Part shown: positions 15,546-31,631 of the stretch, piece after piece | Position numbering within the stretch: the first letter of the stretch is position 1 | Layout: each line of letters starts with the position of its first letter | DNA from: Achromobacter dolens | Lineage (GTDB): Bacteria > Pseudomonadota > Gammaproteobacteria > Burkholderiales > Burkholderiaceae_B | Direction of reading: 5' to 3' | NCBI RefSeq assembly: GCF_902859745.1 | Contig: NZ_CADIJW010000026.1 | Coordinates: forward strand, 1-64,000 | DNA: 64,000 nucleotides | Notes under the pieces: model-generated | The model's database searches: none | What the model saw: the letters and a program-made list of their open reading frames with translations, nothing else | Told to the model about the DNA's origin: nothing | Position numbers and translations under genes: made by a program

Positions 15546-16364
15546 ATGACTGTGAAGAACCCCGTCCCGGCGGACATCGGCGCCCTGCCCGTGGACCTGT
15601 CGGGAAAACGCGTCATCGTCACGGCGGGCGCGGCCGGCATCGGCGCGGCCATCGCCAGCGCATTCGCGGCGCGCGGCGCGCGGGTGCATGTGTGCGATGT
15701 GGACGAACAGGCGCTCGCGGCCTGCCCGCATCCCCATTCGCGCGCCGACGTGAGCCGGCGCGATGAGATCGAGCGCTACATGGGCGAGGCGCTGTCGCAC
15801 CTGGGCGGACTCGACGTGCTGGTGAACAACGCCGGCATCGCCGGGCCGACCGCCGGCATCGGCGACATCGCCCCGCAGGACCTGGACGCGACGCTGGACA
15901 TCAACCTGGCCGCGCAGTTCCATACCGTGCGGCATGCGCTGCCGGCGCTGCGCGAGGCGGGCGGCGGCAGCATTATCAATATCAGCTCGGTCGCCGGCCG
16001 CATGGGCGTGCCGATGCGCACGCCCTACGCCGCCACCAAGTGGGGCGTGGTCGGCCTGACCCGTTCGCTGGCGGTGGAACTGGGCGGCTACGGCATCCGC
16101 GTCAACGCGCTGCTGCCGGGCCTGGTGGCGGGGCCGCGCATCGACCGCGTGATCGCGGCCCGCGCCCGCAACATGGGCGTGACGGTGGCCGAGGAAACCC
16201 GGCTCGAACTGGCCGGCGTCAGCCTGGGGCAGTTCGTGCGCGCCGCTGACATCGCCAACATGGCGCTGTTCCTGGCGAGTCCCTTCGGCGCGATGGTCAG
16301 CGGACAGGCCATCAGCATCGACGGCGACCTGCAATCGCTGCCGTGGCAACCGCCCGCGGACTGA
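15546..16364 (+). CDS. Short-chain dehydrogenase/reductase
   Basis: A 272-residue NAD(P)-dependent SDR. The cofactor motif is TAGAAGIG (usual TGxxxGIG), with NNAG, the catalytic Ser in NISSVAGR and YAATK. The C-terminal VSGQAISIDGD is the usual SDR end. It probably oxidises a hydroxyl to the keto group acted on by the BKACE enzyme of the same operon; this link is inferred. GGAGG precedes the start by 6 bases. Confidence 0.88.
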   Translation: MTVKNPVPADIGALPVDLSGKRVIVTAGAAGIGAAIASAFAARGARVHVCDVDEQALAACPHPHSRADVSRRDEIERYMGEALSHLGGLDVLVNNAGIAGPTAGIGDIAPQDLDATLDINLAAQFHTVRHALPALREAGGGSIINISSVAGRMGVPMRTPYAATKWGVVGLTRSLAVELGGYGIRVNALLPGLVAGPRIDRVIAARARNMGVTVAEETRLELAGVSLGQFVRAADIANMALFLASPFGAMVSGQAISIDGDLQSLPWQPPAD

Positions 16365-17472: not shown

Positions 17473-18069
17473 TCACACCTGGTCTTCGGAGTAGATGCCC
17501 GCCGAGATGGTGGCGCTGCCCACGAACATCTCGCCATACAGCACCGGCACGGGATTGCCCTGCGCCGTGGTGTTGACCGGGCCGTTGAAGTTGTACGACG
17601 CGCCGTTATTGGGCCCGTCCTTGACGCTCAGGGCGCGCTGCTGCGGCGTGAGCAACTGCACCACGCCGCCCAGCGTCATGGCCAGGCCCATGGTCATCAG
17701 CGAAGTGCTGGCGCCCGCCCACAACGCGACGTTGATGCCGGGGATGAAGGACGCGACGATCATCGCCACGCCCACCACCACCTGCATCAGGCCGCCACGC
17801 TTGGCGCCGGTGGGCATGGGCGCGATGCGGATGTCTTCACGGCCCGCCGGCCGCGCCAGTTCGCTTTCCTCCAGGTTGCGGCGGCCGAGGAAGCAGGCGT
17901 AGCGCACGCCCCGGGATTCGCTGTCGAGCAGGCGGGCCTCGAAGCCGGGCAGCAATACGCACAGTGCGCGTACCGCCTCGGCGGTGCTGGAGACGGCCAG
18001 CCGGTGCAGCCGGCCGAACTCCGCGCCCAGCCGGCCGTAGAGGCGGACGGTTGTGAGGGGTTGAGTCAT
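17473..18069 (-). CDS. Second gpI-like tail assembly protein (paralogue)
   Basis: A 198-residue protein of the lambda gpI family, paralogous to the gene at 22232-22837. Both share VRLYG-LGA-FGR at the start, AEAVRALC-LLPGFE, RGVR-ACF-GRRNL, and a nearly identical last 44 residues (from NGASYNFNGPV to IYSEDQV). The hydrophobic glycine/alanine segment around residues 95-135 differs most. In lambda there is one gpI, needed for the tail tip. Here this extra copy closes the operon after J. Its ATG overlaps the preceding stop (ATGA, 18066-18069). Confidence 0.85.
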   Translation of the reverse strand: MTQPLTTVRLYGRLGAEFGRLHRLAVSSTAEAVRALCVLLPGFEARLLDSESRGVRYACFLGRRNLEESELARPAGREDIRIAPMPTGAKRGGLMQVVVGVAMIVASFIPGINVALWAGASTSLMTMGLAMTLGGVVQLLTPQQRALSVKDGPNNGASYNFNGPVNTTAQGNPVPVLYGEMFVGSATISAGIYSEDQV

Positions 18070-18281
18070 GGCGTGTCCCCCTCTGCGTCGATGACCGGCT
18101 TCGGATAGCGTTGCTTGACGCCCTGGCATTGCGCCACCCATTGCGTCACCTCGGCGGGCAGCGCCTGGCCCGACGCCTGCAGGTGCGCGGCGAACTTCAT
18201 GATGGCGTCGAGCTGGTCGCCGATGGCGGGATAGGTGCGGGCGCGCAGCGGCGCGTAGGGTTCATAGTGGCGGATTTTCAA
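18066..18281 (-). CDS. Small phage tail protein, XkdW-like
   Basis: A 71-residue protein starting at a TTG (18281) with AAGGAG 7 bases upstream. The segment YAPLRARTYPAIGDQLDAIMK and the WVAQCQGVKQRYPKP end are typical of small proteins found after tail-tip or fibre genes in many phages (XkdW-like). The precise role is unknown, perhaps tip or fibre assembly. It overlaps the upstream ORF end by 20 bases and the downstream gpI paralogue by 4. Confidence 0.65.
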   Translation of the reverse strand: MKIRHYEPYAPLRARTYPAIGDQLDAIMKFAAHLQASGQALPAEVTQWVAQCQGVKQRYPKPVIDAEGDTP

Positions 18282-18633
18282 TTTCGAACTCCTTGTCCAT
18301 TTGTGGCCAGGCTCGGACGGTGACGCGGTATCTGCCAGGCTGGTCAAACACCAACTCGACATGCGTTTCATCGCAGGGATATTCACCGTCATTGATAATG
18401 ATCGAGCAGGGGACCGTCAGGCCGGAAAGGGTTCTTCCGTCCAGGGAGGCCCTACTCAATGGGCGCGGCATCACCCTTCCATTCTCGATGTACTGGGTTT
18501 GCGCATCGGCGGCGCCTTCGACACATCCAACGGCGCCATTCGACGCGAGCATGGTTTCCAAGAGGTCGTCCTGTTGCAACGAAAGTACGCTGAAAACGCG
18601 ACCATTAACGTCATAAAGAGAATAAATACTCAT
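18262..18633 (-). CDS. Hypothetical tail-tip-associated protein
   Basis: A 123-residue protein of no recognised family. The C-terminal half (VPCSIIINDGEYPCDETHVELVFDQPGRYRV in outline) looks like a small beta-sandwich. Its ATG overlaps the J stop (ATGA, 18630-18633), so it is translated with J. G+C is lower than in the neighbouring tail genes, as is the 3' end of J, suggesting that the two were acquired together as a receptor-binding tip module. Confidence 0.6.
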   Translation of the reverse strand: MSIYSLYDVNGRVFSVLSLQQDDLLETMLASNGAVGCVEGAADAQTQYIENGRVMPRPLSRASLDGRTLSGLTVPCSIIINDGEYPCDETHVELVFDQPGRYRVTVRAWPQMDKEFEIENPPL

Positions 18634-21600
18634 CGCAACAACCCCATCAGTGCCATGCTCCCGGACGCACGTGCGCGACCGTCGAACGGTCTCGGGAAAG
18701 TGATAGTCATAGAATAGATTCCCGGATTCAGGACCTCACTCAGGTAAACGCCGTTGAAGTTACCGACGCCAAAATTCGTTGTCAGCGTCGGATCTGGGGG
18801 GGCAGATCCGCCCCAGCTTCCGCCATTGAAATCGTAGTTCTGCACCAGCATGAGACGGGCGGGAACGTTCAGGTTGATGGCCACCGACGCAGTATTGATA
18901 TCCGACGTCCTGCCCCACTCCAGGTTGAACGAAACCGAGTTATTGATCACCACCGCGCCGCTGGCAATCCGCAACGTATCGACCTGTGCCACACCGATGT
19001 GTGCGGTCTTTATGTAGGCGGAGTCGAAATTCGCCAGCTTCGCGAACAAGGAGGCGCTTTCGATGCGATCCGCGATCATCAAACCCGTCTTGATCTTCCC
19101 GGCGTCCAGGCTCTGGATCATTGCGTTCGTGATCTTCGCGGTGCCGATCAAAGCCTCGTTGATGAATGTCTGCCCGTTCTCGATCACGAATGGCGTGGTC
19201 GTCGCGCCATTCGCCTGGTTCAACAGCGCCAACCGATCCGCGAGGAAATACACCGCTGTCTGCATGCTCCCGTCGGGCTGGGAATAGGCGCCTGCCGACA
19301 TGCCGGCAGCGTAGATCTTGCCGTCCTTCGCAACCTGGGCTTTGATGCTCCAGGTGGCCTTGAGCTTGCCATCCACGTCCACCAGCGCATTGCGCGTCTC
19401 CTCGACACCCGCGGCCGCGCCGTTGGCGGTCGCCATCACCGTGTCGACGCGCGAGGACAACGCCCCATCGGCATCGGCCCGCTTGGTCTCCTCCGCCGTG
19501 ATCGCTGCGCGGGTCTCGTCCAGGCCGGTGGTCAGGCCATCGATGGTGCCGGTCAGCTCCTGGGCCAGTTCGTCGCGGCTGATCTTGCCGTTCAGGTATT
19601 CCAGGATCTCGCTGGCTTCCCAACTGGACTCGCCCATCACGCCCTGGTCGCCCGGATACCAGGCGCCGATCTCGCCGTTCAGGGCAACGATTCGGCCCCA
19701 GAAGTAGAAGCGCTTGCCGGCCGCCAGCCCCATCAGGGTATGGGCGCTTTGCGGGAAGGCGAAGTCGCCCAGCTTGACGGCGCTGGCGCGGTCGTCGGAC
19801 GCGCTGTACCAGATCTCGGTGCGCTGGGCGGTGAAACGCCCTTCCGGAAAGGCCCAGCTCAGGTCGATGCCGAATACCAGCGGTTTGGCGGCCAGCAGCG
19901 CCAACGCCGGCGGCGGCGCGATGTCGCCTTGCAGCATTGTCTCGGTGGAGTTGACCCACACCGACGAGATGTCCGACACGTTGATCGCCCGCACCCGCAC
20001 CACGTAGGCGCCGGCGCGGATATCCGGCAATTCCAGCGTCAGCGCGCCGGTGCGGCCCGCTTCGACCCAGTCGGAATTGTCGCGCCGCCACTGCACCTGG
20101 TACGCCACGGCCGACGGCGCCGCGTCCCAGCTAATGACGCCGACGTGCCGCGCCAGGCCCTGGTCGATCACCGAGCGCGAGGCCAGGCGGATGTTCACAG
20201 GGGCCGGTTGCACCGACGGCGGCACGACGGTGATCGGCTTGGGATCGAGTCGCGTGCCGAAATCGACGTTGTCGAACTTGCCGGGTTCGTGCTGCACGGC
20301 GGCGATCTCGGCCACCAGGCCTTCCTTGCGCTTGACGCTCAACACGCGGAACGTCTGCGCCGACAGGGCCTCGGACTCCAGCGTCCACACGCACTCGGCC
20401 TGCGGCGCCTGCGAGAACGGCGTGGTGACCGTGATGTGCAGCACCGTGCCGGGCAGGCCGACCAGGTCGGCGGTCAGCTCGGTCGAGTCCACCGTGAAGA
20501 CGGTGTTGTCCACGGTCAGGCCGGTGCCCACCGCGGTCGCCACCACGCGGGTCTCCGACAGGCCGTTGGGCAGGTTGACGGTCAGGCGGTCGCCCGGCCG
20601 CACGCCGAGTTCGGCGTCAACCGTGACCTGCGTCGCCGAGCCTTCGCGGATGCGGCCGCCGATGCGGCGGCCCGCCAGATGCTGGTCGGCCACGCGAATG
20701 ACGCTGCCCGGCCGCACACGGCAGGCGTCCAGGCCCACCGAGAACGTGACCGAGCGCGTCTCCAGGTTGGAGGTCAGCAGCATCCACTTGCCGATCCGGT
20801 GCGCCTGGCCGCGCGAGGTGCAGCCGAACCCGGTCACTTCCACCTGCTGAATGCCGTAACGCGCAATGCCCTCGCGGTTCTCGACATACTCGACCTTCTG
20901 GCGGCCCATCTCGGACATGTCGTTCCAGGACACCAGCGCCACCGTATAGCGCGTGGTCAGCGCCGAGCCGACGTAGTTGAAGCGCCCATCGACCACGTTG
21001 GCCGACGAGAAGGTGTAGACCGGATCGCCCGGCATGTCGGCCGAGGCGAACACGGCGGCGTTGGCCCAATAGGCCATGCCGCGAAAGATCGAGGCGAAGT
21101 CCTGCACTACCCGGTAGGCATCGGCCGCTTGTTGCAGGTAGACGTTGCAGGTAAAGCGCGGCTCCTTGCCGCCGAAGCCGTCATCGACCATCTCGTCGCA
21201 GTAGCGGCCTATCTGGTACAGGCCCCACTTGTCGAGCCAGCCCGCCGGCACGCGCGTGCCCAGGCCGTAGCGGTCGTTGCTGATGAGGTCGTAGAACACC
21301 CACGCCGGATTGTTGGTCCAGGCCAGCTTGAAGGTGCCGTCCCACACGCCGTCATAGCGGCGCAGGTCCGGGTGATAGTTGGACGGCACCCGGATGATGC
21401 GGCCGCGCACGTGATACGCGCGGGTGGGAATGCTCTGGAACTGCGACGCGTCGATCTTGATGCCCACCAGCGCCGACATCGGATAGCGCAGCTTGGCGTC
21501 GACGATCTCGGTGACCGTGTCCACCACGGTGCGGTCCGAGATGGTGTTGCTGTTGGCGTTGGGCGTCACGCGGCGCACGCGCACGGTCCAGCCCTGGCGC

Positions 21601-22235
21601 GCGCGCGGCAGCTCGATGCGATGCGAGCGCGTATAGCGCTGGGTGGTCTTGCCGTCGAACGCGGTCGACAGCACCGTCTGGTAGCCGGCGCCGTCGGTGT
21701 TCAGCTCGATCACGTATTCGACGCGGTAGCCGTTGATGTCGCCGTTCTTGGTATCCGCGCGGCTCAGGCCTTCGACCGCCAGCGTGACGCGCACGGCCGA
21801 GGCCTGCAGGTTGGTGAACAGACGCGTCCACGGCTGGCTCGACTTGAGCTCGGCGTTGATGCCGATGGTGTTTTCCGACGCGGGAAAGCCGGGCAGCGGC
21901 TCCTGCAACTGCGTGCCGGTGCGAAAGTCGATCGACGCGCCGGTGAAGTTCAGCGAGCCGTCCTCGTTGGCCACGGGCGTGCCGTTCAGGTAGACATCGC
22001 GCAGCGCGTTGTCCATGCCGTGCACGGGGCCGTAGATCTCGCCTTCGCCCAGCAGGTCGATGACGCGCGCGTAGGCGGTGCTGTGCAGGCTGTCGGGCGA
22101 TTCCACCGGCGTGCGGCCGCCGCCGCCGCCCTTGCCCTTGTGGCCGACAAGGCCCCGGCCCTCGGCCAGCGGCTTGCCGCCAAAAGAAAAGGCGCCCGCG
22201 GGCGCCCTGTTCCTGATGCGATGTCGTTGTTTCAT
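18630..22235 (-). CDS. Tail tip / host-specificity protein J (lambda gpJ-like)
   Basis: A 1201-residue central tip protein that should contact the target-cell receptor. It begins after a basic N-terminus with a Gly-rich stretch and the conserved SLHSTAYARVIDLLGEGEIYGPVHG; the body holds the gpJ core (DLRRYDGVWDGTFKLAWTNNPAWVFYDL...RYGLG), two fibronectin-III-like domains (about 640-840), a DUF1983-like region with helical linkers (about 880-1080) and a C-terminal beta-rich tip. The ATG at 22235 overlaps the gpI stop. Length is close to lambda gpJ (1132). The last 250 codons have lower G+C than the rest, suggesting exchange of the receptor-binding end. Confidence 0.9.
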   Translation of the reverse strand: MKQRHRIRNRAPAGAFSFGGKPLAEGRGLVGHKGKGGGGGRTPVESPDSLHSTAYARVIDLLGEGEIYGPVHGMDNALRDVYLNGTPVANEDGSLNFTGASIDFRTGTQLQEPLPGFPASENTIGINAELKSSQPWTRLFTNLQASAVRVTLAVEGLSRADTKNGDINGYRVEYVIELNTDGAGYQTVLSTAFDGKTTQRYTRSHRIELPRARQGWTVRVRRVTPNANSNTISDRTVVDTVTEIVDAKLRYPMSALVGIKIDASQFQSIPTRAYHVRGRIIRVPSNYHPDLRRYDGVWDGTFKLAWTNNPAWVFYDLISNDRYGLGTRVPAGWLDKWGLYQIGRYCDEMVDDGFGGKEPRFTCNVYLQQAADAYRVVQDFASIFRGMAYWANAAVFASADMPGDPVYTFSSANVVDGRFNYVGSALTTRYTVALVSWNDMSEMGRQKVEYVENREGIARYGIQQVEVTGFGCTSRGQAHRIGKWMLLTSNLETRSVTFSVGLDACRVRPGSVIRVADQHLAGRRIGGRIREGSATQVTVDAELGVRPGDRLTVNLPNGLSETRVVATAVGTGLTVDNTVFTVDSTELTADLVGLPGTVLHITVTTPFSQAPQAECVWTLESEALSAQTFRVLSVKRKEGLVAEIAAVQHEPGKFDNVDFGTRLDPKPITVVPPSVQPAPVNIRLASRSVIDQGLARHVGVISWDAAPSAVAYQVQWRRDNSDWVEAGRTGALTLELPDIRAGAYVVRVRAINVSDISSVWVNSTETMLQGDIAPPPALALLAAKPLVFGIDLSWAFPEGRFTAQRTEIWYSASDDRASAVKLGDFAFPQSAHTLMGLAAGKRFYFWGRIVALNGEIGAWYPGDQGVMGESSWEASEILEYLNGKISRDELAQELTGTIDGLTTGLDETRAAITAEETKRADADGALSSRVDTVMATANGAAAGVEETRNALVDVDGKLKATWSIKAQVAKDGKIYAAGMSAGAYSQPDGSMQTAVYFLADRLALLNQANGATTTPFVIENGQTFINEALIGTAKITNAMIQSLDAGKIKTGLMIADRIESASLFAKLANFDSAYIKTAHIGVAQVDTLRIASGAVVINNSVSFNLEWGRTSDINTASVAINLNVPARLMLVQNYDFNGGSWGGSAPPDPTLTTNFGVGNFNGVYLSEVLNPGIYSMTITFPRPFDGRARASGSMALMGLLR

Positions 22236-22837
22236 ACCTGGTCTTCCGAATAGATGCCTGCGGAGATCGTGGCGCTGCCGACGAACATTTCCCCGTACAA
22301 CAGCGGCACGGGATTGCCCTGTGCCGTCGTGTTGACGGGTCCGTTGAAGTTGTAGGAGGCGCCGTTCTCCGGCCGATCCCTGGCGCTGAGCAGCCGCTGC
22401 TGCGGCGACAGCAGTTGCGCGACGCCGCCCAGCATCATCGACAGGCCCAGCGTGGCCGTGGCCTGAATCATGCCCCCCGCCGTGAACGCCGCCGTCAGGC
22501 CGCCGCTGTAGAACGCCGCCGCGGCGATCAACGCCGCCCCCAGCACCGTCTGGAACAGGCCGCCGTTCTTGGCGCCCGCCAGCACCGGCGCGATGCGGAT
22601 GGCATCCGCGCCCACTGGATGCCCCAATTCGTCTTCCGACAGATTGCGGCGGCCGGCAAAGCAGGCAAAGCGCACGCCCCGTTGCTCGCTGTTCGCGAGC
22701 GCGCGTTCGAAGCCCGGCAACAGCGCGCACAGCGCCCGCACCGCCTCGGCCGGACTGGCCACGACCAGACGGTGCTCGCGGCCGAAGCGCGCGCCCAGCC
22801 AGCCGTAGAGTCGCACCACTCGTGTCCTGTCGTTCAT
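22232..22837 (-). CDS. Tail assembly protein I (lambda gpI-like)
   Basis: A 201-residue gpI homologue: a ubiquitin-like N-terminal part (VVRLYGWLGARFGREHR) and a glycine/alanine-rich hydrophobic middle (about 95-140), with the SYNFNGPVNTTAQGNPVP end. It is needed for tail-tip assembly in lambda. Its start overlaps the end of K by 4 bp and its stop overlaps J by 4 bp. A second, diverged copy lies at 17473-18069. Confidence 0.88.
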   Translation of the reverse strand: MNDRTRVVRLYGWLGARFGREHRLVVASPAEAVRALCALLPGFERALANSEQRGVRFACFAGRRNLSEDELGHPVGADAIRIAPVLAGAKNGGLFQTVLGAALIAAAAFYSGGLTAAFTAGGMIQATATLGLSMMLGGVAQLLSPQQRLLSARDRPENGASYNFNGPVNTTAQGNPVPLLYGEMFVGSATISAGIYSEDQV

Positions 22838-23613
22838 GTCTTTTCTCCATGGCGCAGCACCACCCGGGTGGCTTCACGCCAGAATCCACCGTACACGACT
22901 CGCTCGGAGTCGCGCCCATACAGGTGATGCAGCATCGCGTCGGGCAGCGGAAACAGGTCCGGCGCTTCGCTCAACGGCTGCGCGCCGAGGAAGACGCCGG
23001 CATGGTTGGCGCGGTCCGAACGCACCTGCATCACCACCACGTCGCCCGGCGCCAGCGCTTCATGCGGCTGCAGCGGGCGAAAGCCCGCCTCGGCGTAGTG
23101 ATCCATGTACAGATCGCCGGCGCGGCCAGGTTCCCACCAGCCATCCTCGCGCGGGAAGTCCGGCAGGGTGATGCCGCGTTCGCGCGCATACCAGTCGCGC
23201 ACCAGCGAATAGCAATCGAGCACGCCGTGGGCGAACTGGCGCCCCAGCAGCGGCGCCTGGAAGCCCTCCGGCGTGAAGCCGCGGATCTCGCCGGCCTTGA
23301 CCTTGCCGTCCAGATCCTTGGCCACGGCAACGATGTACCAGGGCAGGCCGGAGGCCTCGCAGGCCACCCGGTCGGCTTCGCTGGGCAGCGCCGCCGCATC
23401 CGGGTGCGAGTGCACCACGGCCGTGATCCGGCCGCTTTCCTCGGCCGCCGCGTAGTCCTGCGCCGACATGACGAAGTGCTCTTCGCTGGCGGCGGTATTG
23501 CGGCACGGCACATACCATTCGCGTCGGCCCGCCTTGACCACCAGCCCGCAGCATTCCTGCGGATACGTCGCCACGCCATGGGCGCGGATGGCCTGCATCG
23601 TGCGTTTGAGCAT
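22834..23613 (-). CDS. Tail tip protease/peptidoglycan hydrolase K (lambda gpK-like)
   Basis: A 259-residue two-domain protein. The N-terminal JAB/MPN metalloprotease carries Glu20 and the HSHP...SEAD motif (His68, His70, Ser78, Asp81). The C-terminal NlpC/P60 domain carries Cys134 (VLDCYSLVRDWY) and His204 (NHAGVFLG). In lambda-like tails it processes the tip and cuts peptidoglycan. All catalytic residues expected for both domains are present. It is the only cell-wall hydrolase visible in the cluster. Confidence 0.9.
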   Translation of the reverse strand: MLKRTMQAIRAHGVATYPQECCGLVVKAGRREWYVPCRNTAASEEHFVMSAQDYAAAEESGRITAVVHSHPDAAALPSEADRVACEASGLPWYIVAVAKDLDGKVKAGEIRGFTPEGFQAPLLGRQFAHGVLDCYSLVRDWYARERGITLPDFPREDGWWEPGRAGDLYMDHYAEAGFRPLQPHEALAPGDVVVMQVRSDRANHAGVFLGAQPLSEAPDLFPLPDAMLHHLYGRDSERVVYGGFWREATRVVLRHGEKT

Positions 23614-23615
23614 GG

Positions 23616-24344
23616 CTATCCCCTGACCAGGTCGGCGGACGGAAAGCCGCCGAAGTTGATGACTTCGTATTCGCCGAAGCGCTTCTTGCAGTCGGACATC
23701 AGGCCCGAACAGCGGTCCAGCGTCGGATCGCTGACCGGCTTGCCATCCAGGTCGAACATGCGGCTGCCGGTGTAACCGCAGTAGGGACCGCGATAACCGC
23801 CCTTGCGCAGCCACGAGCACACGCCGGCGATGATCGGCCGGTCGGGAAGCTTCTGGCCGTTGAAATCCAGCGCGCTGGACAGCGAGAATTCGACCACCTC
23901 GGCGGTTTCGGCGGTCTTTTGCTGCACCAGCCAGACTTCCTGCGGCAACTCTTCCTGCGGATCGGCGGTGGGATTGCCCTGCGGGAAATTGACCGCATCC
24001 AGATACTTCCCGAGCGTGCGACGCACCACCACGCGCGCGCCCACCAGGTCGTCCAGGTGGACGCAAAGCGCCGAGATCACGCCCACCACCGGCTTACCCT
24101 TGTCGTCCTGCCCAATGTTGCCCACGGACAGCGTCGGCGAGGGCTGCTGGCCCTCTCCCACCAGTTCGAACCCTTCGGCGCGGATGGCCCACGGATCGTA
24201 CTGCTGCCCCTGCCACCAGATGGGTCCCACTTGCGTGTAGCCATGGAAACGCAGGACCTGGCCGCCGATGGCCGTCGCATCCAGCTCGAACAGCTCGACC
24301 AATGCGCCGACTTCCAGCTTTTGAACGTCTGAATAAATACCCAT
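23616..24344 (-). CDS. Minor tail protein L (lambda gpL-like)
   Basis: A 242-residue tail-tip protein of the gpL family. The C-terminal third has the Cys cluster (GVCSWLRKGGYRGPYCGYTG...DRCSGLMSDCKKRFG) that binds an iron-sulfur cluster in lambda gpL. The start is 2 bp from the fibre gene's stop and the stop 2 bp from K. In lambda gene L follows M directly; here an 880-codon fibre gene separates them. Confidence 0.9.
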   Translation of the reverse strand: MGIYSDVQKLEVGALVELFELDATAIGGQVLRFHGYTQVGPIWWQGQQYDPWAIRAEGFELVGEGQQPSPTLSVGNIGQDDKGKPVVGVISALCVHLDDLVGARVVVRRTLGKYLDAVNFPQGNPTADPQEELPQEVWLVQQKTAETAEVVEFSLSSALDFNGQKLPDRPIIAGVCSWLRKGGYRGPYCGYTGSRMFDLDGKPVSDPTLDRCSGLMSDCKKRFGEYEVINFGGFPSADLVRG

Positions 24345-24346
24345 TG

Positions 24347-26989
24347 CTATTCCTCTTCAGCCTGCCGTGGCGGTTGTCCGGACTCGCCGTCCCCGCCACG
24401 CAGGCGCTCGACCTGCCTGGTCAGTTCCTCGATACGCCGGTGCATTTCCTGCATGGCGCAGACCATGCGCGCGACCAGCTTGGAGCTGTCGACGCCTTGC
24501 AGCTTCATGCGTGGCGCGGCGCCGTGGACATCGGTCATGACCGCGTCCTTTTCGCCCGACACGGCCAGCGGCGCCACTTCCTGCAGTTCATGCGCGATGA
24601 AGCCATCCTGCGCGCTGTCGTCCATCACCATCCGGAACGTGCGTGGTCGCATGCGCAGCACGGACCGCAAGGCCCAGGCGCCGTCCATATCCTCGATGTC
24701 GTACTTCACGCGGTAGTCCGACGTGGTGTTGTACGAGGTTGCCGCCGGCGAGGTCTGGATGGTGCCCACCAGCCCGCCTGCGGCGTTGGTGAATACGATG
24801 GGCGACGTGTTGTCCGCCTGCGGGCTATACAGCGTGCCGAAGCGGCTGCCGCCGCCTTCGAAGTTGATGGCCTGCCGCACCAGGTAATTGCGGCTGTATT
24901 CCGCGCCCAGGACCCAGGTGGCGGCGGTGTTGATGCGTCCGCAGTCATAGCCGATGACTTCGAATATCAGCGGCTGGTAGGCGCCCGTCCCGGTTCTGCC
25001 GCAGGTGATGTACGAGCCCGACGGAAAGCATTGCAAGGACAGCACGCTGGCGTTGGCGCCGCTGTCCTGCCACACGTTCACGCGGCTGCCCGCGGCGGCG
25101 GTGCCGGGTGCGACATTCAGGTTGCCCGTGCCCGACAGGCTCTGGAAAACCCCGCCCGCATTGGGACCAAAGCCCATCGCGCCGCGGACTTTCCAGGCGG
25201 CGGAATCAAACACCAGGTCCTGCGCCACGCTCGGATCGTATTTCGCGTAGGCCGTTCCATTCCAGCGGTGCCAGCCCGCGCCGTCGACGTAGATGTCGCC
25301 ACAATCCGCGGTCGGCATCTGCAGCGCATTGCTCCAGCTACCCACGGCGCGCCACGGTTGCCAGCCGCCGTTGGTGGTGTTGCCGTGGCGCACATAGCGG
25401 CGCGGCTTCTGGCCGGTGAAGAGCACCGACACTTCCTGGCAAACGATCCCCGCCGACAACCAATAGACATTCATGTAGCCGGCATTGACGGCGGCGCTGG
25501 GCGGCCAGTTCGATCCGGCCGACATGGGCGTCGCCGCTCCCCAGGTGTAGAACGTGTTGTCCGAGACCAGCGTGTTGGCGTCCGTCGCGGCGGTCAGGTA
25601 GACATGCGTCATCGCCTGATCGGCGCGGGCCTGTTCGAACCACGGCCCCCAGGTGGCGACGCCCGCGCTCTGGAAACGGTTGCGGATGAACTTGCGCGGA
25701 TTGGCCAGCGTATAGGTGGTGTACTCCTGGTACACCGCGTTGTTGCTGCCGGTACCGAATTTCACCGACAGCAGGCCGGCCAGCGGCGCGGGATAGTTCG
25801 CCCCGGCCGCCGCGGCCGCATTGGTGTTCTGGCTGTAGTCGCCCGGCGTAGCATAGGTATCCAAGTCATCCGCAGCGCCCAACGGCCGCGCGTTGACGCC
25901 CGGGATCTGCGCCTGCGGCACCTTGCCGGCAGCGTCCAGTGTGGCAATGCCGCCCGGCGCCGCCAGTTGCCCTGAATCGACGCTGGCCACCCAGGGCGAC
26001 CAGGTTCCGGTGATCAGCGAACGGTTATATACCTTGTTGCCATTGCCGGCGTAATACACCTGGCACACCCCGGAGGTAACGCTGGCGCCGCCCTGGGGCG
26101 AGGCAGACATGACCAGCAGGTAGCCCGACTGTCCGACCGGGAAATTGCTGCCCCCGGCCGCGATCGCCGACGAGGCGACGGCCCACAGGCCCCGTTGCGT
26201 ATAGCTGTTCAGATCCTGCGCGGCCGCCATCGATCCGGCATAGGACACCACGGTCGAGACGTCGGTCAGTTCCTTCCAGGCGGACCAGGCGGTCGCCGAC
26301 ACCCGCACGCGCCAGAAGCGCTGCATGGCGGCCGCGACATTGGTGCGGGTGGTGTAGACCTGCGCCACCGGCGTGCCGGTGGCCGTGACTTCAAGAAAGC
26401 CGACGTTGGCCACCGGATAATTGGCGCCCGCCGTGGCCCCGGCGATGGCGGACTGATAGAACGAACCCGGCGTGGCGTAGTCATTCAGATCGTGCGCGGT
26501 CGTCGGCAGGACGGCCGCAAACGCGCTCGGGATCTGCGCCACGGGCACCTTGCCATTCGCATCCAGCGTGGCCAGACCATTGGCGGCCCCTTTCTGCGAC
26601 AGCGCCGGCAGCTCCTGCCAGGCGGCCCAGATGCCACCATAGAACGAACGCCAGAAACGACGCGAATAGGCGCCCGACCGGTACTGGGTGTATTCCTGGT
26701 ATACGAACAGCCCGTCCGCGGAAGCCGCCACTTCCAGCAGGCCGGCGTTCGCGATCGGATAGTTGCTGCCCGTCAACGCGTTGGCGTTGGCGCCCTGGTG
26801 ATAGCGTCCGGGGTTGGTCAGCGTGTTCAGGTCCACTGTCGCGCCAAGCGTCGACGCATTCCACAGGCCAGCCAGTCCGGACTGCACGTCGGCGAAGTTC
26901 GCGTTCACCTTCTGCATGGCCACGCGCAGCGGATCGCCCGCCTGGTCGTTGTCGGTCTTGCCGACATTGATCGCTTGTAGGGTTGCCAT
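24347..26989 (-). CDS. Tail fibre with five knob repeats and a C-terminal S74 chaperone
   Basis: An 880-residue fibre. Five degenerate repeats of about 75 residues (53-127, 167-241, 259-335, 375-452, 470-548) follow the pattern DLN-Y--PG-Y, GANYP, GxLxV, VYQxYT, RxFxR and W--W-EL, as in the pyocin knob domains of tailocin and phage fibres. Collagen-like linkers (GLATLDANGKVPVAQIP) join the knobs. Residues from about 757 (SDYRVKYDI...GFIAHELQEVAP) form an intramolecular S74 chaperone with a terminal coiled coil, which folds the trimer and then cleaves itself. The position between M and L is unusual: fibres normally follow J. It is the likely receptor-binding side fibre. Confidence 0.88.
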   Translation of the reverse strand: MATLQAINVGKTDNDQAGDPLRVAMQKVNANFADVQSGLAGLWNASTLGATVDLNTLTNPGRYHQGANANALTGSNYPIANAGLLEVAASADGLFVYQEYTQYRSGAYSRRFWRSFYGGIWAAWQELPALSQKGAANGLATLDANGKVPVAQIPSAFAAVLPTTAHDLNDYATPGSFYQSAIAGATAGANYPVANVGFLEVTATGTPVAQVYTTRTNVAAAMQRFWRVRVSATAWSAWKELTDVSTVVSYAGSMAAAQDLNSYTQRGLWAVASSAIAAGGSNFPVGQSGYLLVMSASPQGGASVTSGVCQVYYAGNGNKVYNRSLITGTWSPWVASVDSGQLAAPGGIATLDAAGKVPQAQIPGVNARPLGAADDLDTYATPGDYSQNTNAAAAAGANYPAPLAGLLSVKFGTGSNNAVYQEYTTYTLANPRKFIRNRFQSAGVATWGPWFEQARADQAMTHVYLTAATDANTLVSDNTFYTWGAATPMSAGSNWPPSAAVNAGYMNVYWLSAGIVCQEVSVLFTGQKPRRYVRHGNTTNGGWQPWRAVGSWSNALQMPTADCGDIYVDGAGWHRWNGTAYAKYDPSVAQDLVFDSAAWKVRGAMGFGPNAGGVFQSLSGTGNLNVAPGTAAAGSRVNVWQDSGANASVLSLQCFPSGSYITCGRTGTGAYQPLIFEVIGYDCGRINTAATWVLGAEYSRNYLVRQAINFEGGGSRFGTLYSPQADNTSPIVFTNAAGGLVGTIQTSPAATSYNTTSDYRVKYDIEDMDGAWALRSVLRMRPRTFRMVMDDSAQDGFIAHELQEVAPLAVSGEKDAVMTDVHGAAPRMKLQGVDSSKLVARMVCAMQEMHRRIEELTRQVERLRGGDGESGQPPRQAEEE

Positions 26990-26993
26990 GGTG

Positions 26994-27332
26994 TCAGGGC
27001 CTGAAGACTTGTTGGAAGGTCACGGCCAGCGAGTACATCTCGCCGCCCATCGCGGTCAGGTCGTAATCCGTCGCGGTGTAGTAGCCCGGCTCGCCCAGCG
27101 GCGGTTGCCACTGGAAGGCCCGATACCCCTGGTGCCGGTCCAGGAATGCCACGATCGGCCCGACCTGCGCTCCCGAGCCGGAGAACTGCAGCGGCCACGA
27201 GGCCACTTTGTTGTTGATGCCGTCGGCCGCGGTCTGGCGGTAGCCATCGCCGAACTGCGCGCTCAGCACGCGAAACTTGGTCCGCCCTTGCGGATTGACG
27301 CGCGGCGACCAGGTGAAGGTTTCGATTGCCAT
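26994..27332 (-). CDS. Minor tail protein M (lambda gpM-like)
   Basis: A 112-residue tail-tip protein: the FRVLSAQFGDGYRQTAADGINN and FQWQPPLGEPGYYTATDYDL segments are diagnostic of the gpM family. The start at 27332 has GGGGG at 7 bases; an ATG two codons earlier (27338) overlaps the tape-measure stop (ATGA) and is also possible. Confidence 0.88.
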   Translation of the reverse strand: MAIETFTWSPRVNPQGRTKFRVLSAQFGDGYRQTAADGINNKVASWPLQFSGSGAQVGPIVAFLDRHQGYRAFQWQPPLGEPGYYTATDYDLTAMGGEMYSLAVTFQQVFRP

Positions 27333-27334
27333 GA

Positions 27335-28618
27335 TCATGCCCCCGCTAAACGGTTGTTGTTGGCTTGCCAGGCCAGGCCGCCCTGGCGATACGATTGCGT
27401 CATGCGGCGGTCCACAAGCTGGGTGACGTATTCGCCGATCTGCTGGCCGAACTGCTGCCAGCCGCCCTCGCCCGATTCGCTCGAGGAACTGACGTTGCCG
27501 TCCTGCACGTAGACATTGACGGATACCCCGCCGGCGGTCTGGCCCGTGTCACCGCCCATATTCGGGAAGGCGGCACGGATGCCGAGCGAGCCGTCGGCGC
27601 CGCGATGCAGCGGCATGATGGCCTCGGGACCGGCTTCGCCCATGACGCCCATGGGGAAGGCGACGGGGCTGGCGGTCATACCGTTGGTGAAGGCGCCGCC
27701 TTTGGCGAACTGGACGGGAAACGCCTGGGCCACCGATGGCACGATGGCGCTGGCGGTACTTGCGCCACCCGAACCGAACAACCCAGCGATGAAGCCGCCC
27801 GCCTGGCCAATCCAGCCCCCCAGGCCGCCCGAACCCGACATGAATTCCTTGCCCAGCAACGTCTCCATGAGCTGGGCGGAGGCGGCCGACGTCACCATCT
27901 TGGCCACGTTGTCCAGGAACGACAGCCCCATCTTGTCGAATTTCTCGGAGACGAAGTCGTACATCTTGGTGCCCAGGATGTCCTGGATCTTGCCCGCACC
28001 GTTGCGCGCCGATTCGAGCAGCTTGTCGTTCACCTTCGCCATGAAGTCGCCGTCTTTCTCGACGAGCCCGAGATTGCGCCGTTCCTTGTCGTACTTGTCC
28101 TGGCTGAGCGTGCCATCTCGCAGCGCGTCGTCGAGCGCCCATTGCTTCTGAGTCCTCTCGCGTCTGGATTCCGCATCGGGATCCGCGAGATTCTCGATAT
28201 AGGCGCGCATCTTCGTCTGGTCGCGCAGCCTGTCGAGATCCCACGCGGCGGTCGTCAGGCTGTACTTGTCGCTGGGACTCTCACCCGCGAACCGGCCGGC
28301 CTCGGTTTCGTACTCCATCTTCGCGGTTTCGGATGAACGGCCCAGCATCGCGCCGGCCTTCTTCATTTCCGCCAGCGCCTGCTCGACCGCCTCGGACCGG
28401 ATCGCCTGGGCATGCTTGTTCAGCGCGTCCGTCGACTTTTTCTTGCCGTCGGTGCCCTTGTCGGTGGTGTCGTTGCTTTTCTGGCACACGGTCGCGGCCC
28501 GCGCAACGGCGCTCTCCCATGCCCGCCGGGCCGCCGCATTGCGATTGAGCTCGAGGGTGTTCTGTCTGAGCGCCCTGTTTTCCGCCTCGATATTCGCGGC
28601 GTTATTGTTGTTTGCCAT
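27335..28618 (-). CDS. Short tape-measure protein (C-terminal lambda gpH-like)
   Basis: A 427-residue protein. The N-terminal 170 residues are charged and coiled-coil (ENRALRQNTLELNRNAAARRAWE). The rest matches the conserved C-terminal part of lambda-family tape measures: FDKMGLSFLDNVAKMV, the Gly-rich AGGFIAGLFGSGG, FAKGGAFTNG and GVMGEAGPEAIMPLHRGADGSLGI. The usual length is 800-1200 residues, so about half is missing. The start at 28618 follows GAGG; a GTG at 28633 is possible. As tape-measure length sets tail length, either the tail is very short or the gene has lost its N-terminal part. Confidence 0.85.
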   Translation of the reverse strand: MANNNNAANIEAENRALRQNTLELNRNAAARRAWESAVARAATVCQKSNDTTDKGTDGKKKSTDALNKHAQAIRSEAVEQALAEMKKAGAMLGRSSETAKMEYETEAGRFAGESPSDKYSLTTAAWDLDRLRDQTKMRAYIENLADPDAESRRERTQKQWALDDALRDGTLSQDKYDKERRNLGLVEKDGDFMAKVNDKLLESARNGAGKIQDILGTKMYDFVSEKFDKMGLSFLDNVAKMVTSAASAQLMETLLGKEFMSGSGGLGGWIGQAGGFIAGLFGSGGASTASAIVPSVAQAFPVQFAKGGAFTNGMTASPVAFPMGVMGEAGPEAIMPLHRGADGSLGIRAAFPNMGGDTGQTAGGVSVNVYVQDGNVSSSSESGEGGWQQFGQQIGEYVTQLVDRRMTQSYRQGGLAWQANNNRLAGA

Positions 28619-28675
28619 GGTCCTATACCTCACATAGATCCGCCTCCGGCCCGCTTGCGCGGGCCGGACACGTCG

Positions 28676-28966
28676 TCAAGACCCCTTCTTGACCTTCGAC
28701 ATCAGGAACGCCTTCAACGCGTCCGCCCCCGCTTCGGCGGGAGGTTCCTCGTCTTGCGCGCCCCAGCGCACCAGCATGTCGGCGGCGCGCACCTTGCCCC
28801 CCGCCGCGCGCGCCACCGTGGCGGCCAGGCTGGCCGTGAGCACGTCGGCCCGGTCGTCGCCCAACGGAGACGTGCGGTCCCACTCGCGCCACAGCGACAC
28901 TTCATGGGTGTCGATGGTGTCCATCAACTCGCCCAGCGTGCGTCCCAGTCGAAGTGCCAGGACCAT
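28676..28966 (-). CDS. Tail assembly chaperone T frame (gpT part of G-T fusion)
   Basis: A 96-codon frame of the DUF4035/tail-assembly-T type (LALRLGRTLGELMDTIDTHEVSLWREWDR). In lambda this frame is made only as the G-T fusion by -1 frameshifting. Here the A AAA AAG site at 28999-29005 sits in G, and the -1 frame stays open into this ORF, giving a G-T protein of about 254 residues (29439 to 28676). An ATG at 28966 overlapping the G stop (TGATG) could also allow re-initiation. Confidence 0.82.
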   Translation of the reverse strand: MVLALRLGRTLGELMDTIDTHEVSLWREWDRTSPLGDDRADVLTASLAATVARAAGGKVRAADMLVRWGAQDEEPPAEAGADALKAFLMSKVKKGS

Positions 28967-29439
28967 CAGGAAACGGAGGTCTGGCGTTTCCTGGAGGGCT
29001 TTTTTGCGCGCTCCTGCGCCCCCTCCCCGAGGTTGCCCAGCTCGATCGCCTTGGCCACCAGCGTGGCGTGCGCCAGCCCGTAGGCCGCGGCCACGACGTC
29101 AACGTCTTCGTCGTCGAAGACGCGGCGCGGCCCCTGCTCGGTCTGCTCGAACAGCGTGCGCACCAGCAGGCTGGCCGAGGCGCGGGTGTAGTCCACGCCC
29201 GGCGCGTCCAGCTTGGCGCGCACCACCTCGTTGTCCTCGCCCGGCACCACGCCCGCGGCCGCCCAGATCGCGCGGATATGGAACAGGTGATCGCCGGCGC
29301 TGGGCGCGCGCACGATGACGCGGGCGTCCTGCCATTGCGGCACGGTCAGGGTTTCGTGGGCGAAGCCGGCCAGCGGATCGACCGCCAGGCCGCGCAGGCC
29401 AGCCGCGCGCGCGGAGGATTTGATCGACGTGTCCGTCAT
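28966..29439 (-). CDS. Tail assembly chaperone G (gpG-like)
   Basis: A 157-residue chaperone which should coat the tape measure during tail assembly. It has the DPLAGFAHETLTVPQW start typical of this group and an acidic middle (VFDDEDVDVVAAAYGLA). It ends after a basic tail (AKKPSRKRQTSVS) encoded just past the slippery site. It begins 5 bp after the tail-tube stop. Confidence 0.8.
   Translation of the reverse strand: MTDTSIKSSARAAGLRGLAVDPLAGFAHETLTVPQWQDARVIVRAPSAGDHLFHIRAIWAAAGVVPGEDNEVVRAKLDAPGVDYTRASASLLVRTLFEQTEQGPRRVFDDEDVDVVAAAYGLAHATLVAKAIELGNLGEGAQERAKKPSRKRQTSVS
28999..29005 (-). promoter_or_regulatory. Programmed -1 ribosomal frameshift site (A AAA AAG)
   Basis: Read on the minus strand, codons GCA AAA AAG of G form the canonical slippery heptamer A AAA AAG, the same as in E. 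coli dnaX. A -1 slip continues through ALQETPDLRFLMVLAL without a stop into the T frame. Frame arithmetic (G codon phase 0, T phase 1 on this strand) agrees with exactly -1. Confidence 0.88.
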
Positions 29440-29444
29440 GGCGT

Positions 29445-29912
29445 TCAGCCCCCGTTGGCGGGCGCATCGGTCAGCTTGACGGCGCCGGTGACACGCACGT
29501 TGAACGTGGCGGACACGACGTTGTCCAACTGGCCTTGCCACTGGTATTGCGTCACCAGGCCGAGGAACTCGAACTTGGCGCCGTCGGCGAAGGTCACGCG
29601 GAAGGCGCGGGTCTTCTTGTCGCTGCGTGCGGCCACCAGCGCCTTCTGGGCGGGATCGCCAGCCTTCCAGTTGCCGGCCATGCTGAAGGTGCCGCTGTCG
29701 TCCAGGCCCAGGGCGTATTCCTTGGCGGTGGACTTGAGCACGGTGACGTCGATCTCGGTGGTCTGGCCGCCCTGGAAGTTCGGGTCCTTGATGGTGATGG
29801 CCAGATCGGCATACGTCAGGCCGGCGGCGCCCAGGTCTTCGGTAGCCGTGGTCGACACTTCCAGTTGGGTGCCCTGCGTTTGAACGAATTGCGAAACGGT
29901 AGTACCTGCCAT
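29445..29912 (-). CDS. Major tail tube protein (lambda gpV-like)
   Basis: A 155-residue tube-forming protein (MAGTTVSQFVQTQGTQLEVS; TIKDPNFQGGQTTEIDVTVLKSTAKEYALGL in outline; FEFLGLVTQYQWQGQLDNVVSATF), as in lambda-like flexible tails. It lacks the C-terminal Ig-like domain of lambda gpV. It is the first gene of the tail operon; GGAG lies between the ATG and the T-tract of a strong terminator, so transcription must read through to express any tail gene. gpZ and gpU homologues, expected just upstream, are absent. Confidence 0.82.
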   Translation of the reverse strand: MAGTTVSQFVQTQGTQLEVSTTATEDLGAAGLTYADLAITIKDPNFQGGQTTEIDVTVLKSTAKEYALGLDDSGTFSMAGNWKAGDPAQKALVAARSDKKTRAFRVTFADGAKFEFLGLVTQYQWQGQLDNVVSATFNVRVTGAVKLTDAPANGG

Positions 29913-29922
29913 TGCAGACTCC

Positions 29923-29949
29923 AAAAAAAAAAGCCCGCCAGAGGCGGGC
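29923..29949 (-). terminator. Terminator abutting the tail-tube ribosome site
   Basis: On the minus strand a perfect 7-bp stem GCCCGCC-TCT-GGCGGGC is followed by ten T (29932-29923), ending only 10 bases before the tail-tube ATG. It lies inside the 5' leader of the tail operon. Confidence 0.92.
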
Positions 29950-29984
29950 AATAGTGGCGTTTCCGGGAATCCGGAGCGGCCATG

Positions 29985-30015
29985 AAAAAGCCCCGCGGCG
30001 ATTGCCGAGGGGCTT
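29985..30015 (-). terminator. Second terminator upstream of the tail operon
   Basis: On the minus strand AAGCCCC...GGGGCTT with an inner CGGC/GCCG stem is followed by TTTTT. It lies 50 bases after the stop of the phage gene at 30066 and 35 bases before the first tail-operon terminator, making a tandem block. Confidence 0.85.
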
Positions 30016-30065
30016 GGTCGATACGTTCAGATTTTCTTCGGGCGCAACTTGGCCCGACGACTCAA

Positions 30066-30656
30066 TTATGCGGACGTGGTCCGCGCACCGCAAGCCTTTG
30101 CGCGATCGGCGTGTCGCACCTGCGGCGCCGTCACTAGCCCGCGCCGGCGCAACGCCGGCAGCAACGCGACCTTGGCTTCCTGATAGGCGGCGTGCTGCTG
30201 CTCGGGCGTCAGGCGCGGATTGCTGAAGACGCGGGCGCCGGCCGCGCGGTTGCCGGCGTGCACGCCGATGGCCGAGCGCTGCTGCCACGGCAGCTCGTCG
30301 ATACACAACTCCGTCTGCTCGCCGCGCGCGGCGGCCAGGCGGGCGTCGACGTCCTCGTCGTCATAGGCCTCGTCGGCCGTCATGCCGCGCGCGAATGCCG
30401 ATACCCGGCCCACGCCCAGCTTGGGCCGGTAGCCGCGGCTCCATTGGTACCACTCCATGATCAGCGCTTCGACCTGATCCGATTCTTCCCGCGTCATGTT
30501 CTGCCCCTTCAGATTCTGGCCCTGCGCCGCTTGCGACCGGCCGGCCCGCTCCGCCGGCCGCGGCGCAAAGGAGCGCGCGATGGCGGCGCCCGCCTGCGAT
30601 GCCGCCGCGACCCAGCCCTGCGGGGCCTGCAATGCCATGTTTCCTGCCTGATTCAT
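30066..30656 (-). CDS. Phage regulatory-type protein, possibly antiterminator (Q/DUF1133-like)
   Basis: A 196-residue protein that I do not firmly recognise. A variable 50-residue N-terminus is followed by a conserved-looking core: EALIMEWYQWSRGYRP, GRVSAFARGM, an acidic EAYDDEDVDARL stretch, then ELCIDELPWQQRSAIGVHAGNRA and a helical end. It resembles small phage proteins found where lambdoid late antiterminators (Q, DUF1133) sit. Its position supports this: it alone lies between the repressor-controlled promoter and the two terminators in front of the tail operon. AAGGAG precedes the ATG at 30656; an alternative start at 30497 (MTREES) has AAGGGG. Confidence 0.5.
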   Translation of the reverse strand: MNQAGNMALQAPQGWVAAASQAGAAIARSFAPRPAERAGRSQAAQGQNLKGQNMTREESDQVEALIMEWYQWSRGYRPKLGVGRVSAFARGMTADEAYDDEDVDARLAAARGEQTELCIDELPWQQRSAIGVHAGNRAAGARVFSNPRLTPEQQHAAYQEAKVALLPALRRRGLVTAPQVRHADRAKACGARTTSA

Positions 30657-30855
30657 TCGCCGCTCCTTGCCGTTGAGTTCGATGCCGGCGTCCGTCGCTG
30701 GCGGACCCTGCCGGGTTGGCGCCACCCGGGCGCCGGGGTTGCGGACCGCCGCTGCGGGGGTCCGTATGGATGAGGAAGAGAAGCCCTTCGGTAGCGATAC
30801 GCTACCCACGCTTCCGTCTGATAACAGCACACATTTTGGGTGATCCATGACTGGA

Positions 30856-30884
30856 ATTCTACAAGTGTATAATCTCGATTTCAA
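30856..30884 (-). promoter_or_regulatory. PR-like leftward promoter
   Basis: On the minus strand TTGAAA (30884-30879), a 17-bp spacer and TAGAAT (30861-30856) make a good sigma-70 promoter, reading toward the gene at 30656 and the tail operon. The inverted-repeat operator covers both elements. An ATG at 30848 lies at the predicted transcript start and opens in frame with the 30656 gene, so a leaderless longer product is possible but unlikely. 30657-30845 holds no other gene and no cro homologue. Confidence 0.6.
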
Positions 30885-30891
30885 CACTTGT
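30861..30891. promoter_or_regulatory. Operator candidate: ACAAGTGT inverted repeat between divergent genes
   Basis: Perfect 8-bp arms ACAAGTGT (30861-30868) and ACACTTGT (30884-30891) are separated by 15 bp. They overlap both the leftward PR-like promoter and the consensus TATAAT (30868-30873) facing the repressor gene, so one repressor could control both directions. The 23-bp centre-to-centre spacing fits two dimer sites or one looped pair. Confidence 0.6.
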
Positions 30892-30929
30892 TGTTGCACA
30901 ATTTTCCACAACTGTTTAGCGTCGACACC

Positions 30930-31631
30930 ATGGCTCTCGGAAAACAAATCAGGCGCTATCGCGCCGCTCTCGGTCTCACCCTGGAACAGCTCGAAGCGCG
31001 CACCGGCGTGGGCGTGGGCACCATCGCCGCGCTCGAGGGGCGCGACAGCGAACGCTCGAAGTACGCGGCCCGCCTGGCGGCGGGCTTGGGGCTGTCACTC
31101 GAGCAACTGCTGGACGAGTCGGCGCAGTATCCGCCGGACATCGTGCTGGCCGATGCCGGCGGCGGCGATGCGCCGCCCGTGGATGTCGGCGCGAGCGACG
31201 ATCTGCGCATCCCGCGCTTCGATACCGGCGGCGCCATGGGCGCGGGCGTGGAGCTGCGCGACCAGCCCGGCGTGATCCAGAGCCTGCGCGTCAGCCAGGA
31301 ATGGCTGCACAAGAACCTGCGCCACTACACCGCGGCCGCCAACCTGTGCGTGGTGACGGGTTTCGGCGACAGCATGCGGCCCATGTACAACCCGGGCGAT
31401 CCGCTGCTGGTGGACCTGGGCGTGGTCAAGGCGGACGTTGACGGCGTGTTCTTCTTTCGCGTCGGCAACGAGGGCTTCATCAAGCGCCTGCAGCGCATTC
31501 CCAGCGCCAACGGCCTGCTGATCCGCGCCAAGTCCGAGAACACCAAGTACGACGCCTGGGACATCACCGAAGACATGGACCTGCAGATTTTCGGACGCGT
31601 GTTGAAGGTGTGGCGCAGCGAGGATCTCTGA
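30930..31631 (+). CDS. CI/LexA-type phage repressor with S24 peptidase domain
   Basis: A 233-residue repressor: an XRE helix-turn-helix (about 5-60, LTLEQLEARTGVGVGTIAALE) and a C-terminal S24 domain with Ser148 (GFGDSMRPMYNPGD) and Lys185 (GFIKRLQRI). An Ala105-Gly106 bond in the linker is a possible RecA-stimulated self-cleavage site, so tail expression may follow DNA damage. The ATG at 30930 was chosen over an upstream in-frame Met because the HTH starts there. Faces away from the tail operon. An 8-bp GC hairpin without T-run follows its stop (31630-31648). Confidence 0.88.
   Translation: MALGKQIRRYRAALGLTLEQLEARTGVGVGTIAALEGRDSERSKYAARLAAGLGLSLEQLLDESAQYPPDIVLADAGGGDAPPVDVGASDDLRIPRFDTGGAMGAGVELRDQPGVIQSLRVSQEWLHKNLRHYTAAANLCVVTGFGDSMRPMYNPGDPLLVDLGVVKADVDGVFFFRVGNEGFIKRLQRIPSANGLLIRAKSENTKYDAWDITEDMDLQIFGRVLKVWRSEDL

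Follow-up and report, generated by a model that had tools for sequence, protein, structure and literature searches.

In the 64,000-nucleotide stretch of Achromobacter dolens analysed here (assembly GCF_902859745.1, contig NZ_CADIJW010000026.1, positions 1 to 64,000; hereafter the window), we describe a cluster of phage-like genes that we read, with a probability of about 0.7, as a domesticated and mostly vertically inherited headless lambda-like tail locus, that is, an F-type tailocin-like system with a short tail and a CI-to-Q control. The locus is probably a weapon against related bacteria, a tailocin function that we infer from the genes alone. A sequence-only reading of the window had proposed a possible F-type tailocin, and comparison with other genomes supports it: the headless locus occurs in eight genomes of the genus that fall in one clade, and the mean ratio of nonsynonymous to synonymous substitution rates (dN/dS) is below 0.4 for each of its genes. 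What is new here is the CI-to-Q circuit, the shortened tape measure, the presence of a second gpI and the absence of any lysis gene that could be recognised.

The genus set comprised 43 genomes, and V, the tail tube gene, was detected in nine of them at 94-100% identity. In 37 genomes the flanking LysR gene (16420-17349 in the window, a model match) was over the strict threshold, and those 37 sites, the window included, were read; six genomes without LysR at that threshold, G025 among them, were left unassessed at the site. The whole cluster lies between LysR and a gene at 31716-33275 that we take to be DUF1254 in 8 of the 43 genomes (window included), while 28 genomes have an empty site with these two genes adjacent and no cluster gene, and one remnant (G018, locus L097) keeps the CI gene and the Q-like gene alone. 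G025 is the ninth carrier, with a diverged cluster at a different chromosomal place, and host genes flank eight of the nine headless copies. The closest named relatives, judged by the L gene, are Achromobacter insuavis, A. ruhlandii and A. deleyi. In a DNA tree of LysR and the neighbouring SDR-like gene (15546-16364, named by eye), which is a tree of flanking genes and not of whole genomes, the eight carriers and the remnant form one clade (support 97/94), and the three site states take two changes against a mean of 8.4 when shuffled. The history of the cluster at this site is one gain and one loss. The cluster also occurs in IMG/VR, where ten contigs (L150-L159) hold the Q-like gene at 83-99% identity with V adjacent in all, seven of them measuring 13.6-14.3 kb.

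No head module is present at any of the 37 sites read, and the eight in-site carriers are all headless, as the sequence-only reading had expected when it named full head modules at the same locus in relatives as contrary evidence. A recent head deletion from an active prophage at the site is rejected on the same counts (0/37 genomes with a head module, 28 empty). Head and other phage functions were searched with a panel of 31 proteins, of which 18 come from the Bordetella phage vB_BbrS_PHB09 (MN103401), its V and J serving as positive controls, and the remaining 13 from other loci; 29 of the 31 represent head, packaging, integration, replication and lysis. With this HEADLESSNESS and lysis panel, V and J alone matched the window and the eight other full copies, no neck homologue appeared in the nine copies, and the remnant gave no match to any of the 31 proteins. 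Applied to seven prophage loci (L017, L129, L131, L160, L181-L183), the panel did detect terminase, portal, capsid, neck, adaptor or terminator genes. The panel negative in nine copies agrees with the earlier statement that terminase, portal, capsid, integrase, replication, holin and endolysin genes were not seen.

The tail genes themselves are well preserved. Homologues of V, G/GT, H, M, the fibre, L, K, I and J had been described as tightly packed, which the PHROGs matches and the gene overlaps confirm (for example ATGA at I1/J and at H/M). The core genes have near-constant open frames in 9/9 genome copies, all matched tail genes are open in one frame in 12 of 14 distinct IMG/VR contigs (over stretches from V to I1 at most), and the G/T frameshift site CAAAAAAG, with T in the -1 frame, is identical across all nine copies compared. 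Mean dN/dS was obtained from 28 pairs of eight copies (27 pairs in the case of K and of the hypervariable gene, and five copies giving 10 pairs in that of the fibre), with values of 0.025 for V, 0.076 for L, 0.089 for K, 0.096 for CI, 0.124 for I1, 0.134 for I2, 0.166 for the Q-like gene, 0.173 for J, 0.174 for the fibre, 0.222 for G, 0.246 for T, 0.307 for M, 0.338 for H, 0.349 for the small gene and 0.386 for the hypervariable gene. Host controls gave 0.145 for LysR, 0.066 for SDR (six copies, 15 pairs) and 0.308 for the DUF1254-like gene. The low dN/dS, the open frames and the single clade of the carriers indicate a locus maintained by selection and not decaying, with the two broken IMG/VR contigs as evidence to the contrary. 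Selection had first been argued from the preservation of the tail frames and the frameshift site, with a dN/dS below 1 proposed as a check, and both points hold in the genome copies compared. The second gpI, I2, was also considered as decaying debris and this was rejected, given its presence in all nine genome copies and its dN/dS.

Two aspects of the tail deserve attention, its length and its tip. H of the window has 427 amino acids (aa) and aligns to the C-terminal third of the 1191-aa tape measure of PHB09; across the nine copies, counted from the aligned start to the stop, it ranges from 403 to 437 aa, and the tape measures of the prophages L017 and L181 have 1381 and 1113 aa. The lambda tape measure has 853 aa, and each residue corresponds as a rule to about 0.15 nm of tail. 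Scaled from the 427-aa H at the lambda ratio, the predicted particle would perhaps be about 65-75 nm long; the lambda tail is given as 150 nm (PMC9022992). At the tip, I2 is 76-98% identical to that of the window in the other copies, and I1 and I2 share 63-67% identity. A conference report describes that lambda gpK cleaves the ubiquitin-like domain of gpI (PMC12908700). Sister species have exchanged their fibre and J-tip modules. Between the window and A. ruhlandii (LysR 97%), the first 2700 nucleotides of J are 99.4% identical, the remainder 67% and the next small gene 57%; between L089 and L091 (LysR 97%), J and the small gene reach 98% and 99%, but H and M only 71% and 62%. The fibre differs or is missing between species: it is a stub in A. 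ruhlandii, and L091 has short other frames instead of a fibre between M and L and a fibre-like gene before I2, 51% identical to the L089 fibre.

The CI-type repressor named by the sequence-only reading stands, with its HTH and S24 parts conserved in the eight carriers and the remnant. In the interval between CI and the Q-like gene, the palindrome CAACAAGTGTTG is invariant in the eight in-site carriers and the remnant, and a second one, TTATACAyTTGTAG, has one variable base across the same set. Both overlap a promoter-like TTGAAA-17-TAGAAT; the promoter scan on its own is weak (3 sites observed against 1.9 expected). We consider these conserved, operator-like palindromes as candidate CI operators. 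The in-site copies and the remnant share a further inverted repeat, GGTAGCGTATCGCTACC or a near variant, which lies downstream of this promoter and ahead of the Q-like gene (30790-30806 in the window). In the remnant, CI has PG where all eight carriers have AG, at what we assume to be a possible self-cleavage position.

The "small phage gene" of the earlier reading (30066-30656) is probably a Q-type antiterminator, because of the position of its homologues in full prophages and the promoter-hairpin-terminator element that some of these share with it. In lambda, the late switch consists of Q, pR' and tR'. Outside the clusters, five Achromobacter genomes contain between them six homologues that are free of stops, and one more homologue has a stop. 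Five of these six were read, and they and those of the viral contigs L160 and L161 follow replication-type or nuclease-type genes and precede HNH, terminase and portal genes (by eye) by about 0.6-3.5 kb, except in L130, where the contig ends early; the panel confirmed TerL or portal in L129, L131 and L160. Across the Q-like stop codon runs CTTGCGG...CATAAT, followed by a short hairpin, and two to four hairpins with T-runs precede V in each of the eight in-site carriers. The same promoter-hairpin layout is found 3' of the Q homologues in L129, L130 and L160-L163. All 13 aligned copies of the element fold to a hairpin, with an energy lower than all but 1-20 of 300 letter shuffles; these copies were gathered with a pattern derived from them and hence do not test it independently. 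In a control, the window has one occurrence of a similar pattern and 50 simulated windows have none. A profile built from nine Q-like proteins aligns (probability 62%, E 8e-5) with the one in the related cluster L147, a protein that matches phrog_79, and the structure model has a confident helical core (mean pLDDT 66.5). A PDB profile search of the Q family gave no match, and neither did a phage-record search with the Q-like protein and two relatives. The arrangement resembles a lambda-type late switch in that a Q-like gene is followed by a promoter, an early hairpin and terminators ahead of the late operon. It differs from lambda in a late operon reduced to tail genes and in a Q-like protein that the searched models do not recognise.

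A possible course of events follows from these parts. CI would keep the promoter closed via the two operators and, upon DNA damage, would presumably be lost by S24/RecA-type self-cleavage, as in an SOS induction. The Q-like protein would then be made and, acting as an antiterminator, would load at the pR'-like promoter over its own stop codon, so that RNA polymerase could read past the terminators into V-to-I2. The products may assemble a short non-contractile tail, whose J tip and fibre would select the target. In tailocins, binding is reported to switch the fold of the central fibre, eject the tape measure and puncture the cell (PMC12908700); likewise, binding here would change the tip, eject the tape measure and puncture the inner membrane, thus killing the target. 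Lysis of the producer might depend on genes at another place in the genome or result from the death of the cell.

Table 1. Features of the tail locus in the window, from the repressor to the end of the operon.
Feature	Coordinates	Strand	Evidence
CI-type repressor, HTH and S24 peptidase domain	30930..31631	+	PHROGs and domain matches
Promoter-like TTGAAA-17-TAGAAT with two short overlapping operator-like palindromes (30882-30893, 30859-30872)	30856..30893	-	
Q-like late antiterminator candidate, 196 aa	30066..30656	-	Position in full prophages, distant phrog_79 link
pR'-like promoter TTGCGG-17-CATAAT across Q-like stop codon, and transcribed hairpin	30038..30094	-	
Two terminator-like hairpins with T-runs, Q-like gene to V	29923..30015	-	Pattern scan (one), folding (both)
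V, tail tube protein	29445..29912	-	phrog_158, PF16460, PF16461
G, tail assembly chaperone	28966..29439	-	phrog_344/14766
T part of GT, expected -1 frameshift product	28676..28966	-	phrog_337/14766; conserved slippery site
H, shortened tape measure protein, 427 aa	27335..28618	-	PHROGs; alignment to PHB09 C-terminal third
M, minor tail protein	26994..27338	-	phrog_14
Tail fibre, C-terminal S74 chaperone domain, 880 aa	24347..26989	-	
L, minor tail protein	23616..24344	-	phrog_18
K, JAB and NlpC/P60 tail-tip assembly protein	22834..23613	-	
I1, gpI	22232..22837	-	phrog_32
J, central tail fibre / host specificity	18630..22235	-	phrog_31, PF13550, PF09327, PF24801; start read from sequence
Hypervariable small protein, varies jointly with J C-terminus	18262..18633	-	phrog_18216
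Small gene, phrog_2687 family	18066..18281	-	
I2, second gpI paralogue ending the operon	17473..18069	-	phrog_32, PF06805

A fusion of I to J, suggested by a long open reading frame, was considered and rejected, as they are separate genes with a 4 bp overlap.

Among known systems, the F-type pyocins and F-type tailocins (the F pyocin-like prophages of Pseudomonas and rhizoviticin of Allorhizobium vitis) are described as headless, with lambda-like non-contractile tail genes, no capsid genes and repressor control as here (PMC2647930, PMC10811719). The cases described there have lysis genes, whereas none is recognised in the Achromobacter cluster; a lysis cassette is usual in such systems but does not strictly define them. 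Also, rhizoviticin is 164 nm long and keeps replication-related genes (PMC10811719), unlike the genes of this cluster. The CI to Q-like switch, the 427-aa tape measure and the second gpI also set it apart from those cases. PHB09 has a like order, V-G-T-H-M-fibre-L-K-I-J-orf-orf with few extra small genes, and its V is 71% identical; it differs in being a whole phage, equipped with terminase, portal, capsid, neck, terminator and spanin, and in its long H and single gpI. No Achromobacter tailocin appeared in the titles and abstract openings of the papers listed, and in the two closest of them tailocins come up in passing or in a different context. A search of the cluster DNA against phage records gave no match.

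Closer relatives are found in the same family, where the V search hit 17 of 268 genomes. Clusters of Bordetella ansorpii (L007), Bordetella genomosp. 13 (L008) and genome G107 (L147) have a repressor and V-to-J-type tail genes with no head homologue by the panel, and their H proteins have 468-844 aa. L007 has an endolysin and a hol-like gene, L147 an endolysin and a spanin, and in L008 the lysis genes identified are limited to a homologue of the hol-like gene of L007. In G107 the order is repressor, Q-like gene, endolysin, spanin and then V-to-J, and the L007 and L008 clusters adjoin the same flanking gene (by eye). Related headless clusters with an endolysin (L007, G107), as tailocins have, were counted for the tailocin reading. 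In genome G081 (V 74%), a 15-kb contig carries V, G, T, M and an H of 337 aa together with a repressor and a terminator-like gene, and the panel finds no further head homologue on it. Loss of gpU as a rule of headless clusters is rejected, since G081 retains that terminator-like gene. L007 also has two gpI genes (11914-13875), both upstream of J, and L144 is a further headless lambda-like tail cluster in a genome of the same family.

Several observations weigh against the tailocin-like reading of the Achromobacter locus. No model of Pfam, NCBIfam or PHROGs is matched by the Q-like protein (to E 5), and the promoter-hairpin layout was not seen after three more distant homologues (L131, L132, L133) nor in L147. 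By the panel, no homologue of the tail terminator gpU is present in the nine copies; no lysis gene is recognised in the cluster, and five of the nine carriers, the window genome included, lack both PF00959 and PF03245 genome-wide. The sequence-only reading had called the missing terminator and lysis genes its weak points, and the one on lysis is real. In G025, V is cut off by an inserted element from the Q-like gene and CI. Broken frames in sister strains, which had been named as evidence to the contrary, are absent from all nine genome copies and present in 2 of the 14 IMG/VR contigs, in H and the fibre (L151/L174) and in the fibre (L153/L173); they may be real decay or assembly error in repetitive fibre genes. 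Finally, synonymous divergence lies below the LysR level for V-G-T (0.16-0.22 against 0.54, with SDR at 0.38) and above it for H, M and the fibre (0.67-0.88), which points to movement of some segments between species by recombination. Correlation with LysR distance is 0.88-0.90 for J, K, I1 and G, 0.23 for M and 0.47 for the hypervariable gene.

The lysis results bear on an explanation to which we give a rather small chance, namely that the locus is a selected tail device which differs from a classical lytic tailocin, its tails being assembled with no programmed lysis and employed in or on the producer, for example against the tail assembly of incoming phages, or freed only by unrelated prophage or stress lysis. 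No lysis gene is recognised here, while L007 and L147 have an endolysin. None of the eight lysis-region proteins of the panel has a homologue in the nine copies; this part of the panel had little independent control, the L007 hol-like gene being the sole one matched outside its own locus (in L008). Genome-wide, phage lysozyme PF00959 occurs in 2/9 carriers (G006, G010) against 18/34 other genomes and Rz PF03245 in 3/9 (G010, G020, G031) against 15/34; a GH19 search had hits in 0/10 genomes but also in 0/14 controls, and is uninformative. TerL_ATPase PF03354 is absent from all nine carriers and present in G018, other terminase families not having been searched, so no helper prophage of that terminase type is available to the carriers. 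This explanation agrees less well with target-specificity modules that are swapped as in weapons, and only some lysin families were searched; other lysin families in the carriers are possible.

We consider it quite improbable that the locus is a decaying prophage remnant, a tail operon left by random deletion and with no present function. It would account for the lack of integrase, head and lysis homologues, for the loss of tail genes in L097 and for the element that parts Q from V in G025, and the two broken IMG/VR contigs make it slightly more likely, and the tailocin-like reading slightly less so. It is at odds with the open core tail genes in the genome copies and in most contigs, the low dN/dS, the conserved frameshift site, operators, promoter and terminators, and the single gain in the clade. 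As for the G025 element itself (L128, L096), it lies close to the first terminator, contains integrase-like and trb-like genes (by eye) and separates the tail operon from its promoter; the uninterrupted relative L175 matches both sides with a 9-bp overlap. Least probable is a helper module whose tails would serve satellites, defective prophages or gene transfer agents that have their capsid elsewhere. For it there is a weak match of the tape measure to the RcGTA tape model, far under the cut-off, and against it stand the lack of a neck or terminator homologue for joining a head, the loss of two thirds of the phage tape measure, the absence of capsid and packaging genes, as a gene transfer agent would need, at the locus by the panel and the absence of TerL_ATPase in the carriers (within that one family).

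Returning to the tailocin-like reading, release of tailocins is described as cell lysis at a cost to the producer (PMC12090994). A selected tail locus without recognised lysis genes raises the question of how particles exit, or whether exit is needed. We tentatively put forward, as a rather speculative view, a tailocin lineage that has dispensed with a lysis cassette of its own and with the greater part of its tape measure and has kept the two-step CI-to-Q antitermination switch, that is, a minimal short-tube weapon or intracellular tail device with no dedicated suicide lysis, retained at a single site while eight Achromobacter species-level genomes diverged. For a tailocin, control by a CI-to-Q switch would be unusual, and the length of the particle can be predicted from the shortened tape measure. 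Relatives that range from a full phage to headless clusters with lysis genes and then without them may represent stages in domestication. Since people with cystic fibrosis are colonised by Achromobacter, a natural strain-specific weapon of the genus would be of practical interest.

Elsewhere in the window, homologues of HamA and HamB at 171-3778 represent a Hachiman-type anti-phage defence in a low-GC region (0.48), perhaps a recent island, and two small overlapping minus-strand genes at 4058-4752 look toxin-antitoxin-like (by eye).

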